From Neofusicoccum parvum (taxonomy: Eukaryota > Ascomycota > Dothideomycetes > Botryosphaeriales > Botryosphaeriaceae): a stretch of 64,000 bases of DNA. The number at the start of each line of letters is the position of its first letter. The first letter of the stretch is position 1. Positions 47,442-60,551 of the stretch are shown in pieces. The DNA is taken from positions 186,001 through 250,000 of the forward strand of contig CP087223.1 in NCBI GenBank assembly GCA_020912385.1. The letters are read 5' to 3'. The position numbers and the translations under genes are program-made. The notes below the pieces were generated by a model that saw only the letters and a list, made by a program, of their open reading frames with translations, had not been told where the DNA came from and did not search any database.

Positions 47442-48295
47442 ATGCTTCAGAAAATTATTTCCGTGGCCCTCTTGGTCTCCTCTATCAGCGCAAGCTGCCT
47501 TCACGGCACTTCGCTTGTGCCTCGCCGCTTGACGGAGCGAGCCGACAGTGTAGAGGTCAGCACCTTCGGCTACACTGGCGCTCGTGGGCCCCTCAAATGG
47601 CACACTCTCGACTCCGCGAATGCCAAGTGCAAGACAGGCCGCAACCAGTCGCCTATCAACATCGGTAAGCATGCAACCTTTCTTCGTGTCTGTCTCTGCT
47701 TAACCTTGCTCCAGACAGCAGTATCAAGGTCGCCTCAGAGACCCCGGTCATCAAAATCCCGAACGTTCAGTCTGCCGAGTTTGAGAACCTCGGCAGCACT
47801 CTCGAGGTTATCGTCAACGGTACCACAACTGTCGGTGGCACCACCTTCGACCTGGCTCAGTACCACCTGCACACTCCCTCCGAGCATCGCATCAACGAGG
47901 AGTACTTCCCTCTTGAAATGCACATGGTGCACGAAGCCGCCGATGGCTCCGGCTTCACCGTCCTTGGTCTCCTCTTTGAATTGACGACGGATGGTAGCAC
48001 CACCGAGCTGCTCACCGCCACGACCAAGAACCTCGCCGAAGTCGACACCCCCGGCGCGATCACCGAGACCGGCGCTCTCAACTTCAGCCCTCTCATCAAA
48101 CACTTTACGTCAAACCCGATTCTTAGCTACACCGGCTCCCTCACGACCCCTCCTTGCTCTGAGGGTATCAACTGGCTGGTCAGCCAGAAGCCGATGCCGA
48201 TCAACGTCGCCACTTTCAACGCCCTCAAGGATGTCATGAAGTTCAACAGCCGCTACACCCAAAACACGCTCGGTCAGACCAACCTGCTTGAATAA
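47442..48295 (+). CDS. Secreted alpha-type carbonic anhydrase
   Basis: Exons 47442-47664 and 47715-48295 encode 267 residues. The 50-bp phase-1 intron has GTAAGC, CTTAACC and CAG signals. Residues 1-17 (MLQKIISVALLVSSISA) are a signal peptide. The enzyme hydrates CO2 to bicarbonate at a zinc ion. Zinc ligands are His125 and His127 (QYHLHTPSEH) and His144 (EMHMVH). Glu131 and the Thr of LTTPPCSEG form the usual gate pair. NQSPINI stands at the exon junction, and two Cys (AKCKTG near residue 62 and TPPCSEG) form the conserved disulfide. The C-terminal FNSRYTQN is also typical. Length is normal for fungal secreted alpha-CAs. All key residues are intact, making this the clearest functional enzyme in the window. 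It probably works in the wall or medium on CO2/pH balance. Confidence 0.95.
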
Positions 48296-54664: not shown

Positions 54665-55306
54665 CCTCGCCGCTACAACTATAGACCGCATCCAGTCTTG
54701 GACGGACAAGGCGGCCCGCGGTCAGAGGGTCTTGGTGGGTGAGATTTTGAACCTGAGGGCACCCGGGCAAGGTGGTAGCGAGGGAGAAAACAAGAAGGAG
54801 AGCCGCCAGCGATTGTGACCTGTCCGCCCGGCCTCATTCGCCCGCCGCACGCACCAAACGCGCTGTCTCCTGGCACCGCGTCGCTGCCTGCCAGTCAGCC
54901 ATGTTGCCCGCGAGCACGCCCGCCCCCACCCACGACGATTCACCGTCCAACGCGGCCAATAGGGTGGTCGGCCGACCTCCGCCGCCCGCATTCCGCCGCA
55001 CCACCACCTCACCAAACCGCAGCCCGCCATCCCCTCCACGCCCTCCCCTCCCCTGTTGTGCCAACGAGAGAAGGGAGAAGAGCGTTACGTCTACAGCCAC
55101 GGCCATGTTCTGATGAGCCTGCTGAGGGTGTTGCGGTTCAGTCACGTGAATTGAACGTGATCTGGATGGATTGCTTGATTGAAGAATGGAGGCGGTAGGC
55201 CCAGACTATATACAGAGGGTGAAGGTTGCACATGACTTGACACGTGATATAGTGCACGTGATTCTCAACAGAGGGCATGTCGCCGCCGCAGCAGCCTTCT
55301 TCGTCG
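54665..55306. other. Intergenic, GC-rich, up to the LINE target site
   Basis: Overlapping Pro/Arg/Ala-rich frames occur on both strands with no convincing gene. The last bases, from 55307, are the target-site duplication of the LINE. Confidence 0.35.
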
Positions 55307-55320
55307 ACTTGTGCCTATAT

Positions 55321-57406
55321 AGAGGAATGGGAGGCAACAAGTGGTGCAACATTCGAAGCCGGGAAGACAACGCTTATCCACTTTACAAGAACGCCCCAAA
55401 GACTATCGGACCAAGCGGTGACAATAAAGGGGAATGAAGTACACCCAAAGACGGAGGCTAAAATTCTCGGTGTCATCTTTGACCAAGAACTGAAGTTTAG
55501 AGCCCACGCAGGCAGGATCGCGAAAAGGGGAATCCAGGCCGCCTTGGCGCTAAGAAGGCTACAGGGCCTACGGCCAAGCAGCGTACGCCAGCTCTTCATA
55601 GCAACGGTAGCACCAACAGTTGATTACGCCTCGCCGGTATGGGCACCAGCCGCCACGCACTTAACGCTCAAGTCACTTGAAGCGGTCCAAAGGATTGCAG
55701 GAAGAGCCATCACGGGGGCCTTTAGGACTGTTGCCCTGCCAATACTCGAAGCGGAAGCAGCAATCTTACCTACTAAGACCCGCCTTGAACAACAGATGCT
55801 CCGGTTTTGGGTTAACTGTCACACCCTCCCACAGTCTCACCCATTCTGGAGGTTAAAAAGAGCTATCAACCCAGCGAATAAAAGATTCGTATCCCCACTC
55901 CAGCGGATAATGCTCTTGGCTGGAGAAGCAGATATAGAACGACTAGAAACAATCCAGCCATTCGTAAGGATGCCCTGGGAGGATCGGCCGGTAGTAAGGA
56001 TCGAGAGCCTAGAGATAGCAAGCCTGCAAGCGAGCAAGCTTCCAACGTTAGAGGTGGCCATCTTCACCGACGGCTCGCAAAGAAACCAGAAAGTCGGCAC
56101 CGGTATCTCCTGCGTGGACAGCACCGGTATAACCGCTATAGCACACTCGCTTCTGATAGGCAGATCGGACTCAATCGATATCCTACACGCAGAACTACAG
56201 GCAATACAACAGGCTATAGCCCTAGTGCATGGCACGTGGTCTGCAGAAGCCGTCGCCTCGCGTCCGGATATAGCAAAGATAAAACACGTCATCTACAGTG
56301 ATAGTAAGACAGCACTACGATCCCTTCGCCGGCCGTGGCAAAGGGCGAGTCAAGAAATTATCAGAGCTATCCTCTACCTCCTTCGCCAGATTCGGCAGAA
56401 CAACGGACCGCCGGTTGAGTTCAGGTGGGTACCAGCGCACCAGGGTATCGCAGGAAACGAAAGGGCAAATCAACTGGCACTGCAAGCTACAGCAAGTACC
56501 CAAGAGCCCCCGCATAGTGTAGTACTACGGTCCCTAGCGCTTTCAAAATGCAAAGCCGCAACTATGAAGAAGTGGACGGAATCCTTTAAGACCGCTAAAG
56601 GAGGTGAGGCCTCCCGTAAGCTCGACCAGGCACTCGCTCAGTTTCATACGAAACGGCTTTACAATCAGCTTAGCTACAAAGAGGCTTCTGTAATCGCCCA
56701 GCTTCGAACCTCTAAGGCAAATCTCAACGAACCACTATATAAGATTAGGTGTGCGCAGTCAGCAGCGTGCGCCTGTGGAGCAGAAAAAGAGACAGTCAAG
56801 CATTTCCTTCTCGAGTGCCCGCGCTGGCTGGATCTTCGGGTAGAGCTACAGAACGGGCTTGGAGATAGGTTCGGTGACCTTGCGTATATGTTAGGAGGCT
56901 GGTCAGGAACAAAACTACCGAATGGGAAATACAAGGACGGACCTCCGGACAAGTGGCGGGCGGACCCGCGTACGATCAAAGCAACGGCAGCTTTCGCTTT
57001 GGCTACCGGAAGGCTTAACACAACTAGGGATTAGGAGACTGCGACGGCTACTCACTCCTCTATCCTTCTACCAGTTAGTTGTCACGCTGATATAGGGACT
57101 GACAACGCTCGGGAACTAGTCTCGACGAGGCCTGGCATGAAGGACTAAAGCAGTCAACCCCTCCTACCTCCCCTTAACATTCAGCAGTCTTAGCTTCATC
57201 AGTTTTACCTTTCCTCCCTTTCCTTTCTTTCTTTTCTGTTCTTCCTGTCTTACGCTCGTTTCAAGAAGGGTAGCGACTTCAATAATGTGTGGGCCTTGGA
57301 TGAACCGGGATCCCAATGTAGCTTAAAGCAGATTTAGCGATATTGTCCCTATGGCCCGCGGAGGCCGACGGGGTGTATGAATACTACTACTACTACTACT
57401 ACTACT
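55321..57406 (+). mobile_element. 5'-truncated non-LTR retrotransposon (LINE, Tad/I-like), recent insertion
   Basis: A ~2.09-kb insertion is bordered by ACTTGTGCCTATAT at 55307-55320 and 57407-57420. This is a 12-14 bp target duplication; the first two bases overlap the tail repeat. It holds the C-terminal part of ORF2, ~370 bp of 3' UTR and a TAC-repeat tail instead of poly-A. The 5' end is cut inside the reverse transcriptase, as usual for LINE copies made by target-primed reverse transcription. The open frame has no stops, so it is young. Confidence 0.92.
55322..57034 (+). CDS. LINE ORF2 C-terminal fragment: RT thumb, RNase H, CCHC-like end
   Basis: 570 codons without interruption. First comes the end of reverse transcriptase (SGATFEAGKTTLIHFTR; EAKILGVIFDQELKFRAHAG; IATVAPTVDYASPVWAPAAT). 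Then a type I RNase H: IFTDGSQRN (Asp), HAELQAIQQ (Glu), VIYSDSKTAL (Asp), VPAHQGIAGNERANQLA. In the last motif Asn replaces the usual Asp after GNE-x-A. Finally C-A-C-x8-H-x4-C (CGAEKETVKHFLLEC), the zinc-binding signature at the end of Tad/I-group ORF2. The catalytic YxDD of RT is missing because of 5' truncation, so the copy cannot move by itself. The frame is also open upstream to 55277, but those codons belong to the target DNA. Confidence 0.93.
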   Translation, partial: EEWEATSGATFEAGKTTLIHFTRTPQRLSDQAVTIKGNEVHPKTEAKILGVIFDQELKFRAHAGRIAKRGIQAALALRRLQGLRPSSVRQLFIATVAPTVDYASPVWAPAATHLTLKSLEAVQRIAGRAITGAFRTVALPILEAEAAILPTKTRLEQQMLRFWVNCHTLPQSHPFWRLKRAINPANKRFVSPLQRIMLLAGEADIERLETIQPFVRMPWEDRPVVRIESLEIASLQASKLPTLEVAIFTDGSQRNQKVGTGISCVDSTGITAIAHSLLIGRSDSIDILHAELQAIQQAIALVHGTWSAEAVASRPDIAKIKHVIYSDSKTALRSLRRPWQRASQEIIRAILYLLRQIRQNNGPPVEFRWVPAHQGIAGNERANQLALQATASTQEPPHSVVLRSLALSKCKAATMKKWTESFKTAKGGEASRKLDQALAQFHTKRLYNQLSYKEASVIAQLRTSKANLNEPLYKIRCAQSAACACGAEKETVKHFLLECPRWLDLRVELQNGLGDRFGDLAYMLGGWSGTKLPNGKYKDGPPDKWRADPRTIKATAAFALATGRLNTTRD

Positions 57407-57408
57407 AC
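57381..57408 (+). repeat. TAC trinucleotide tail of the LINE
   Basis: About nine TAC units close the 3' UTR directly before the target-site duplication. Such short tandem 3' ends replace poly-A in several fungal LINE groups. Confidence 0.85.
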
Positions 57409-57420
57409 TTGTGCCTATAT

Positions 57421-58068: not shown

Positions 58069-58968
58069 TCATGTAAGATTCGTTTCTAGCGAGTGGTGTT
58101 CCGCTCGGTTAATAACACCGTTGTTCACAGTATTACCACCGGGCGTGCCTGATACTTTATTACCTCTAGTCCAATTAGACATACTCGGTTCCGTTCCACT
58201 GGTCCCAGATTGGATCCCGTTATTGACGTTGTGATCATGTCCATGAACTTCGTTGCTCTCGGCCTGGTTGGCTATCTTGTACGGCGAAGTACTCGCAGAC
58301 GCGTCTTGATCCCAGATTCTGGGACTGTCGTCTCCAAGACTGGAGGCGTCGTGGTGATCAGAAAAATCCTGCATTGGCGTGTCTTCATCACGCTTTGCAA
58401 TTTGCTTCTCCTGAGACTCCGTCTTGTACCGTTCGTCCTGTATGCGAATCAATTGGCAAGGCGCACACACCAAACTTTGTCAAATTTGACTCACTCGTTT
58501 CAAAACGTCTTCGGTCGACGGTGGCATTTTGAATCTCCCCGGATTGTCGTGAGGACCTTGCACTGCGATGTAAAGCAGCAAGTTGGTTTTATCCCCCTCG
58601 AGAGCTCGAAAACAATGCAATGCCTCCTTCTCTAACTTGAAGGCTACTACAGCTCTGAAAGCCTTCCGTACAGGGCCTCCGTTCGGTTGTGGAGTATTCT
58701 TGCCGAGAATTTGAAGGAGGCTATGAATCCTGTCCTGGATTTTTCCAAGATGTCTCTGAGCTCTTGGATTCTGGAGAGTTCCGTCGTTTTCAACAGATTG
58801 GAGTATAGATTTGAGGAAGCTGAGCTGTTCAGAATGTACTTTGATACGAAGTGGAGCCTCCTGAAGCTGGGTCCACAGCTCGTCGATGGTGAGGATGAGT
58901 TGGAAGATATAAGCGGCAATCTGGGCAGCGCCAGCCGCCACTCCGAGGGCCTCGATGCCCGATATCAT
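58069..58968 (-). CDS. SesA-domain effector-like protein with C-terminal paired Asn/Gly motifs
   Basis: Exons 58968-58495 and 58437-58069 encode 280 residues. The 57-bp phase-0 intron has GTGAGT and ACAG signals. ATG 58968 (MISGIEALGVAAGAAQIAAY) was preferred over an upstream in-frame ATG (59058) because SesA domains start this way. Residues 1-~150 match SesA (the N-terminal domain of fungal NLR-like proteins and stand-alone death effectors): LWTQLQEAPLRI, a variable helix, HLGKIQDRIHSLLQILGK, KAFRAVVAFKLEKEALHCF, LEGDKTNLLLYI. A polar linker follows. The tail has two motif copies about 29 residues apart: NEVHGHDHNVNNGIQ (220-234) and NKVSGTPGGNTVNNGVIN (251-268). This resembles HET-S-type proteins, where a death domain is followed by two amyloid-forming repeats. 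The gene is divergent from the membrane-protein gene at 59883, which has the same motif. Domain call is solid by pattern; amyloid function is inferred. Confidence 0.82.
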
Positions 58969-59882
58969 GAGGTTAGGCAACGATGTTGATAAGTATATGT
59001 TGAAGAGGCTTCGGGACACGTAAGCTGCCGGTCGAAAGAGATGATGCGGAAGACTCACGCTGGCTTTCTAGCCTGCCAGTTGCAGAAATTTTAGCGAGGG
59101 GGGCTTAGCAACCCTGATAATTGCTGAATAGCCTTGCTGAATTCCGTCTGCATATGCATTCTACCCTGCCAAACTGGCGTATAGCGGGCTGTGTTGTGCA
59201 CCAACCTCTAGGCTGCAAGGCGTCCTTCAGCCCTGTACAGAGTTATCAATACCATGAATCCAAAAGGGGAGATATTGCATACACTTGGCAGACCTTCAAG
59301 CAATGTGCGGGGAATGTGTGGCGTTTTAGTGTGACAAGGCTGAGGCTGTACCGCGTGGTGGTTAGCTCTTATAGGCTCCAATTAGTGATTCGTCTGACAC
59401 ACCTCATGCGTGTCATATCGTCACCGGTGAGTCTTCAATCTCGCTCAGCCTTGCATATTTCAAATGCTCAAATGTTTCGTGGTGCACGATCGGGCGTTGA
59501 GAGATTCGCCTTTGGAGAGCTGTGTGGACCTTGCGCCCACCCCAGACGTCAGCCGTAAGCCGTGAGAGCGGAAATAAGAAGATTTCAGGATATCAGACCG
59601 GAATATACAAAACAAACACAAGGCTGAGCGAGAAAGCAGGCTTCAGAGGCTGCGATAAGGCTCATCCGGACGCGACGTTGCACTTCAAGCCTCCTCAAGC
59701 TTATCTGGATACGACGTTGCATTTCATGCCTCCTCGGCCTATGCAGGATTTGCCTGAACCATCAGCACCGGCCATAAGCGCTGTGATAAATGCGGCCTCG
59801 CTAGGATCAGTGCGGTGGCCTTCTTTTCGAAAAGACCTCGACAACCTCGATTCACTTACTGCTGCGTTCAATATTCTTCAGC
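58969..59882. other. Shared upstream region of the divergent pair
   Basis: ~0.9 kb between the two start codons. Open frames at 59121-59558 and 59522-59929 have no domain and are judged non-coding. TCCGGACGCGACGTTGCA at 59668 and TCTGGATACGACGTTGCA at 59704 form a 36-bp direct duplication (each unit CTCAAGC-TTATC/GGATACGACG-like). Confidence 0.45.
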
Positions 59883-60551
59883 ATGGTCACCTCAGACGCA
59901 GGTTCACCAACACCCGACAATTCAGCTAGCAATAGAGCTAGTAATAATTTGGTCCACGGTGACGGCAATCACACAAACAATGGTATACAACAACTGTTCA
60001 GTCTCGTCGCTAGCTGTCTACCGGACTGGCTCAAGAAGAAACGCTGGATAGTCGCATTTCTTGTAATCATCGGGACCTTCAGCATCGTTGGTATAGTTAT
60101 TTCAAAAATAGATATCGACCATGGAAGCAATTCCCGACCAAGTGCGTAAGTACATACACCCGCTGGCTGATATCCTACGTCCCAACAATGCTGATCGATT
60201 ATTGTTAGGAGTACGACACCCCCGCCGACTTCTGCCACAAGCGCCACTTCAGCGAGCCGTATGCTGTCGACAAGGTCGTATATCTCAGATCAATCAGCAG
60301 TCCCAAGCCAAGGAGCATCGAGCATAGCCTCGAGTACAACATCATTGAGGGACTCAACAACAGCGACAAATACTGCCACCTCTGTGACCGCAGGGGTTTC
60401 TTTGATCGCTCTCTCAGACTTGACAAGCACTTGGGTATTCACATGCGATTGGGGATGTCCAGGTTGGTCGTGCGAGATTAATGAGAACTGTACGAGCCAT
60501 TACCCTTGTGAAACTCCAGCTTCTACCTGTGGTTCAACTCAAAGTATGTAG
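59883..60551 (+). CDS. Single-pass membrane protein (N-in, C-out) with cytoplasmic Asn/Gly motif and Cys-rich outer end
   Basis: Exons 59883-60145 and 60209-60551 encode 201 residues. The 63-bp phase-2 intron has GTAAGT and TTAG signals. Residues 1-50 are polar and hold NNLVHGDGNHTNNGIQ (21-36), matching VHG-HDHN-VNNGIQ of the adjacent SesA protein. KKKR (51-54) directly before the hydrophobic helix WIVAFLVIIGTFSIVGIVI (55-73) puts the N-terminus in the cytoplasm. There is no signal peptide. After the helix comes a Ser/Thr-rich stretch of ~80 residues (probably O-glycosylated stalk), then a Cys-rich end (FTCDWGCPGWSCEINENC, YPCETPASTCGS; six Cys). The layout is that of a receptor: an outer Cys-rich module, stalk, membrane helix and a short inner motif. 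No known family is recognised for the outer part. The start is the first ATG in this frame; an upstream exon cannot be excluded. Confidence 0.72.

Follow-up and report, generated by a model that had tools for sequence, protein, structure and literature searches.

A short motif common to membrane proteins and neighbouring cell-death-type proteins at three loci suggests a membrane-started fungal 'prion relay'

Amyloid signalling in fungi is best described for pairs of a NOD-like receptor (NLR) and an effector: NWD2/HET-S, PNT1 with its PP-motif effectors, HET-eN/SESA/SESB with the sigma motif, and the PUASM pairs (PMC4518210, PMC5485727, PMC9815663; statements on these papers and on those cited below refer to their available portions). 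In NWD2/HET-S the receptor motifs take an amyloid fold and act as template for the motif pair on the effector (PMC4518210, PMC10197012), and among the effectors described are SesA proteins whose motifs are C-terminal (PMC4518210, PMC5485727). The starters of fungal amyloid signalling in these sources are intracellular NLRs (PMC9815663, PMC12881547, PMC10197012, PMC7889193). Here we analyse a divergent gene pair in a 64-kb window (contig C18:186001-250000) of the 44.0-Mb, 18-contig genome of Neofusicoccum parvum, in which a small protein with a helical domain (E18) shares a short Asn/Gly-rich motif with a neighbouring predicted membrane protein (M18). It is proposed that E18 and M18 are probably the effector and the membrane partner of a short-motif relay resembling NWD2/HET-S, in which a membrane protein replaces the NLR.

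E18 (280 amino acids, minus strand) and M18 (201 amino acids, plus strand) are encoded by open frames with canonical introns at the coordinates given for the pair, and their start codons are separated by 914 bases (Table 1). The preliminary description of this DNA had proposed that the divergent genes share a motif, present twice in the tail of the minus-strand protein and once near the N-terminus of a single-pass membrane protein with a Cys-rich outer end. The gene models and motif copies bear this out: both E18 copies, R1 and R2, lie in exon 2, M18 has one predicted membrane segment and one copy, and its end, on the predicted outer side, carries six Cys, as does that of its paralogue M3. Sequence comparison also agrees with the remark that the codons of NNGIQ are unlike in the two genes. 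NNGIQ is encodable at 10 places in the genome (0 for a reversed-pattern control); two of them are E18 and M18, about 1.75 kb apart on opposite strands, and the other eight have no V-x-G upstream. Frames at C15:140637 and C4:226406, with similar secreted-looking N-termini (MRF...SIRDNNGIQ) and NNGIQ without V-x-G, apparently form an unrelated secreted family.

The arrangement first described for this pair, one motif on the partner and two on the effector in adjacent genes, is repeated at two further loci, a divergent pair on contig C3 and a cluster on contig C13. All three loci come from the one genome, with gene models drawn on consensus splice sites, and at each an effector with paired C-terminal motifs has as neighbour a gene whose product carries that motif N-terminally. 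Across all genes found, two C-terminal copies are present in five of five E proteins and in four of four proteins of a further type, X, while four of five M proteins carry one N-terminal copy. The C3 pair was found with E18 and M18 as genome queries (E paralogue, E = 2.3e-20; M paralogue, E = 1.9e-5), and its start codons are 0.8 kb apart. E3 (295 amino acids after splicing) has a domain as in E18 and two motif copies, NMIKGNGNKVTNGNI and NGVEGDGNEVINGNV; M3 (180 amino acids) has a single N-terminal copy, NAIDGIGNLVQYG, one membrane segment and a six-Cys end like that of M18. As a genome query, M3 matches only itself and M18.

The C13 cluster (862-878 kb) was reached through weaker E18 matches. 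Its genes run in the order upstream X (+), M13b (+), X13a (-), E13a (+), M13a (+), X13b (-), E13b (+), E13c (-), X13c (+) and M13c (-), that is, two M-X-E modules and a third module in inverted order. The X proteins, whose start codons were picked by eye, are polar and end in two motif copies; no membrane segment was found in X13a and X13b, the two tested. E13c was assigned to the E family by its tail (E = 4.4e-8 against E13b), a stop breaking its frame upstream of the tail and the broken part being domain-like by eye; M13c shares homology with M13b in the region of the membrane segment (E = 3e-8). With the E13c frame interrupted and no motif in M13c in the gene models drawn for it, the third module appears decayed. 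The splice acceptor of M13a is uncertain, and motif and membrane segment are kept with all six in-frame acceptors listed. The upstream X is homologous to X13a (40% identity, E = 6e-27); its 372-residue frame (C13:862435-863553) is longer than those of the other X proteins, and the first half, which has no X13a counterpart, may be part of a different exon or gene. Neither the 64-kb window nor the 10-kb C3 locus contained another motif frame. With no X gene seen next to the C18 and C3 pairs, X is a variable component of the system. Two other weak matches, of M13b on C9 (E = 0.09) and of E18 on C12 (E = 0.6), were inspected and no family gene was found there; near the former lies a plus-strand frame (2298-2801 of the examined stretch) with a SesA-like start, GVGDIIAVGELCFKLYRQVYQ, and without the motif.

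In an alignment of 16 copies with one gapped position, the motif begins with W or Y (13 of 16), followed after two residues by N (16 of 16) and, 8-9 residues later, by N-G, the N of this pair being present in 15 of 16 copies and usually having one hydrophobic residue before the pair and two after it. A matrix was built from three effector copies (E3 R1, E3 R2 and E18 R1; E18 R2, with two extra residues, was excluded from the matrices) and compared with a background of 224,575 nt in six frames, drawn from 44 loci, of which 30 are NACHT loci, and from the initial 57 kb of the window. With this effector-only matrix the M18 copy scores 32.3, a value reached by none of 238,909 background windows; none of 245,642 windows reaches M13a (27.6), M13b (26.0) or the two copies of the upstream X (18.4 and 20.3), and X13a R1 (10.3) stands just over the top background window (10.2). 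A leave-one-out scan of 679,910 residues with 19 copies (E18 R2 and the upstream X excluded) gave scores of 10.2 to 42.5 and a best unrelated window of 16.6, so that three of the 19 copies (10.2, 12.2 and 16.2) would be indistinct if they stood alone. The top two matches outside the training set (18.7 and 18.4) lie 30 residues apart in the same frame, just upstream of the C13 cluster; since this frame, the upstream X, is homologous to X13a, the scan recovered a family member not previously listed. The genome-wide pattern Q-S-R-Q-h-N-G-[D/N] (h being I, L or a few others) occurs at three places, all in the C13 cluster (control, 0). A Pfam scan of E18, E3, M18 and M3 matched no motif family, the PP, HRAM and PUASM models not being among those compared.

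The motif differs between loci and is matched within them. When each M motif was scored against the effector copies (BLOSUM62 local scores), the best match of all four was with effectors of its own locus: M18 scores 61 with E18 (best elsewhere 49, E3), M3 51 with E3 (best elsewhere 31), and M13a and M13b 49 and 50 with the C13 effectors (best elsewhere 30 and 36). In sets of 5,000 shuffles of the effector copies, none reached the M18, M3 or M13a value and four reached the M13b/E13a value. This pattern suggests co-variation of the motif between partners, as a comparison of four M proteins at three loci and not a phylogenetic test.

The preliminary description had also assigned a SesA-type domain to E18. 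As a Pfam match this assignment did not stand; as a remote relationship it did, the E family being, on profile-profile comparison, remotely homologous to SesA domains. In hhalign, the E family and SesA-type domains from this genome aligned with a probability of 97 (E = 8.3e-11, 127 columns, score 70), against a score of 14.4 for the reversed template and at most 22.9 for 60 column-shuffled templates. The template had four rows, three from places above the Pfam SesA cut-off and a fourth (L010), without Pfam test, that was first found as a weak E18 match; with two Pfam-positive rows only, the probability was 90.5 (E = 1.4e-6), and with single rows 50 and 37. A search of the whole genome with PF17107 did not return the places of E18, E3, E13a and E13b, and the best sequence match of E among solved structures had E = 0.056. 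AlphaFold2 models are helical, with modest confidence values of 72 and 63; fold comparison gave 0 matches with E <= 0.001, and HeLo and MLKL were not among the 50 matches listed, which excludes nothing. E18, E3, E13a and E13b (four of four tested) have in common a phase-0 intron where domain and tail meet. The sole E18 homologue found in the protein database is from Neofusicoccum ribis (56% identity over 95% of the query, 79% in aligned columns); it retains both motif copies, the second with a longer spacer, and its annotated model is without a 58-residue stretch found in E18. Its UniRef name, 'NACHT-NTPase and P-loop NTPases', is presumably SesA-linked, as a label and not a test. E18 is hydrophobic over its N-terminal 30 residues (mean 1.28), in line with HeLo-type domains, which attack membranes with an N-terminal helix (PMC10197012).

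The M proteins are small (180-220 amino acids), and each of the five has one predicted membrane segment. The net charges of the 15 flanking residues on the N and C sides are 3/0 in M18, 3/-1 in M3, 2/0 in M13a, whose C side has a single residue, 3/2 in M13b and 1/-1 in M13c; the N side is thus the more positive in all five, weakly in M13b and M13c, where K+R counts are equal on both sides. From this charge bias a cytosolic motif is predicted, and M would be single-pass membrane proteins with the N-terminus inside. Serine, threonine and proline make up 45% of the M18 residues C-terminal of the membrane segment, and a phase-2 intron after the segment lies at the same place in M18 and M3.

Table 1. 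Features of the E18/M18 pair (positions in the 64-kb window)
Feature	Position	Strand	Remarks
E18 exon 1	58495..58968	-	Helical, remotely SesA-like domain (158 aa) with hydrophobic N-terminus; open frame and splice, hhalign, AlphaFold2 helical model with predicted local distance difference test (pLDDT) 72
E18 intron	58438..58494	-	57 nt, phase 0, GTGAGT...CAG
E18 exon 2	58069..58437	-	Polar tail with two motif copies
E18 motif copy R1, NEVHGHDHNVNNGIQ	58210..58254	-	Retained in N. ribis
E18 motif copy R2, NKVSGTPGGNTVNNGV	58114..58161	-	Two extra residues; retained in N. ribis with longer spacer
M18 exon 1	59883..60145	+	N-terminal region with motif, then membrane segment
M18 motif copy, NLVHGDGNHTNNGIQ, residues 22-36	59946..59990	+	
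M18 membrane segment, residues 56-74	60048..60104	+	KKKR before it; hydropathy 2.73 over 19 residues, sole segment >1.6
M18 intron	60146..60208	+	63 nt, phase 2, GTAAGT...TAG, directly after membrane segment
M18 exon 2	60209..60551	+	Ser/Thr/Pro-rich stretch, Cys-rich end
M18 six-Cys end (CxWGCPGWSC...YPC...TC)	60444..60530	+	Common to M18 and M3; no Pfam match

In the neighbourhood of the pair, a long plus-strand frame at window positions 55262-57034, 1 kb from the 3' end of E18, resembles by eye the end of a non-long-terminal-repeat (non-LTR) retrotransposon ORF2 (RNase H-like part, zinc-knuckle-like end CACGAEKETVKHFLLECPRW). A short run of ACT trinucleotides lies at about 57382-57410, some 0.7 kb from the same 3' end, and a 208-residue plus-strand frame at 47786 is by eye like an alpha-type carbonic anhydrase (VNGTTTVGG..FDLAQYHLHT).

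The three loci resemble the fungal NLR/effector pairs in that the genes are neighbours, the partner having one N-terminal motif and the small effector two in its C-terminal tail; in the helical domain of the effector, HeLo/SesA-type in those pairs and remotely SesA-like in E; and in a motif that the partners at a locus have in common and that has diverged from one locus to another. Three proteins, as in M-X-E at C13, are also encoded at the sigma locus. Unlike in those pairs, the partner M is a small predicted membrane protein that lacks NACHT/NB-ARC and repeats, the motif has no Pfam match, and one locus has the extra component X. No NLR partner was recognised at these loci: M has one membrane segment, and Pfam gave no match in M18 or M3. 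Of the amyloid-pair reading put forward in the preliminary description, the pairing, the copy numbers, the N- and C-terminal placement and the within-locus match hold at three loci, and SesA holds as remote homology but not as a Pfam match.

By analogy with the described pairs, we infer that M and E may act through sensing, an amyloid fold, templating and cell death. M18 would be membrane-bound, its N-terminus facing the cytosol and the Ser/Thr-rich end with its Cys cap lying outside. An outer cue would cluster M18, whose N-terminal motifs would then meet and fold as a cross-beta seed; this seed would template the paired copies in the E18 tail, and the templated tail would free the SesA-like helical domain, which may act on a membrane, killing the cell or walling it off. 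In the C13 cluster, the polar two-copy X may amplify or tune the relay. The wider proposal, a membrane-started fungal amyloid-type relay in which diversifying M proteins are wired by locus-specific motifs to SesA-like E proteins, and at one locus, with its repeated M-X-E order, also to X as amplifier or brake, seems to us to have somewhat less than an even chance of being right.

Several results count against these proposals. Pfam PF17107 (SesA) has no match, even at E<=10, in E18, E3, E13a, E13b or the N. ribis protein. The M3 copy is weak by itself (14.7 with the effector-only matrix, one of 238,909 background windows scoring higher), as is X13c R1 (5.6, with 14 of 245,642 higher), and M13c has no N-terminal motif in either a one-intron or a two-intron gene model. 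Inside C13 the best match ignores the module (M13a-E13a 49 versus E13b 45; M13b-E13b 50 versus E13a 45). The outer parts of the M proteins range from the six-Cys end of M18 and M3 to a single residue in M13a and 72 Cys-free residues in M13b, the latter two sharing nothing with M18 or M3; with one residue after the membrane segment, M13a is where the word 'receptor' is least secure. The protein database yielded no homologue of M, whether the query was M18 alone (463 candidates) or the M3+M18 alignment (3919 candidates), though the N. ribis homologue of E is present there.

Some of these features would suit a different role for M, namely that of a membrane anchor or guard that prevents E (and X) from acting or tethers them, as happens in killer/immunity or allorecognition pairs, E being freed when M is lost or mismatched. 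Tight pairs and a repeated, partly decayed cluster suit fast-turnover conflict genes, and M13a, almost without an outer part, could hardly sense outside cues; yet one N-terminal copy on the partner and two C-terminal copies on the effector is the layout of activating pairs (PMC4518210), and the six-Cys outer end conserved in M18 and M3 would be superfluous for a mere anchor. We regard the guard as unlikely, while giving it real weight. The motif could also serve for docking without amyloid, as a short contact through a beta-strand or loop that joins M, X and E in soluble, reversible complexes, to which its shortness, its Asn/Gly-richness and the charged residues of several copies would be suited. 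Paired copies at 30-residue spacing, alternating hydrophobic positions and locus-specific divergence are, on the other hand, as in described amyloid signalling motifs (PMC9815663), and docking alone appears to us a rather unlikely account.

A reading in which an NLR encoded elsewhere is the true sensor, and M a side branch or second effector, is improbable in our estimate. The genome has many NACHT genes (76 matches, 42 above cut-off), partners can be unlinked (PMC9815663), and the scan took in 30 of the 76 matches with 1.5 kb on either side, the other 46 and the NB-ARC genes lying outside it; but none of the 30 loci carries the motif, and the three genome places of the C13 motif core are all in the C13 cluster. 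Over those 30 loci the search for such a hidden partner ended without a candidate, and the lone background window above M3 is a frame at window + 21045 and not an NLR. Chance resemblance between Asn/Gly-rich stretches of neighbouring genes was a natural suspicion while the observation was one pair, such stretches being common and the M3 copy alone lying within the reach of chance. It is contradicted by the recurrence at three loci, by matrix scores above background and by the emergence of an X13a homologue beside the cluster (E = 6e-27) as the top two matches outside the training set; we therefore rejected it on the three-locus recurrence and the background scans, and consider it very improbable.

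For the proposed relay with M as membrane-bound starter, likenesses of layout exist outside the NLR pairs. The yeast Wsc/Mid2 wall sensors are single-pass proteins with a Ser/Thr-rich outer stalk and, in Wsc1, a Cys-rich outer domain. M18 would be like them in these respects, and their topology, with the N-terminus outside, is opposite to that predicted for M; we know of no amyloid motif in these sensors. PGRP-LC of Drosophila has type-II topology. In the PGRP-LC/IMD signalling amyloids the starter is a membrane receptor, whose cytosolic amyloid motif recruits a motif-bearing partner (PMC9496462), an arrangement that M, with its predicted topology, would share. The animal system differs in its cRHIM motif, its peptidoglycan-binding ectodomain and its adaptor to NF-kappaB, and here too the likeness is one of layout.

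No comparable fungal protein was recognised in the literature covered. The word 'transmembrane' is absent from the available main text of PMC9815663, and a fungal membrane receptor with such a motif is unmentioned in the available portions of PMC12261475, PMC12881547, PMC7889193, PMC5485727 and PMC10197012; titles and abstracts of the open-licence literature, a search with subscription papers and preprints outside its range, contained no recognisable description of an amyloid motif in a fungal transmembrane protein. If true, a membrane-started relay would parallel in fungi the amyloid signalling that surface receptors drive in animals. A membrane-anchored starter would imply that the amyloid switch is a general plug between very different sensors and killers, and fungi would gain a candidate for a surface alarm acting ahead of cell death. 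The diverged motif pairs within one genome would be a natural set for studying what sets the specificity of cross-seeding.

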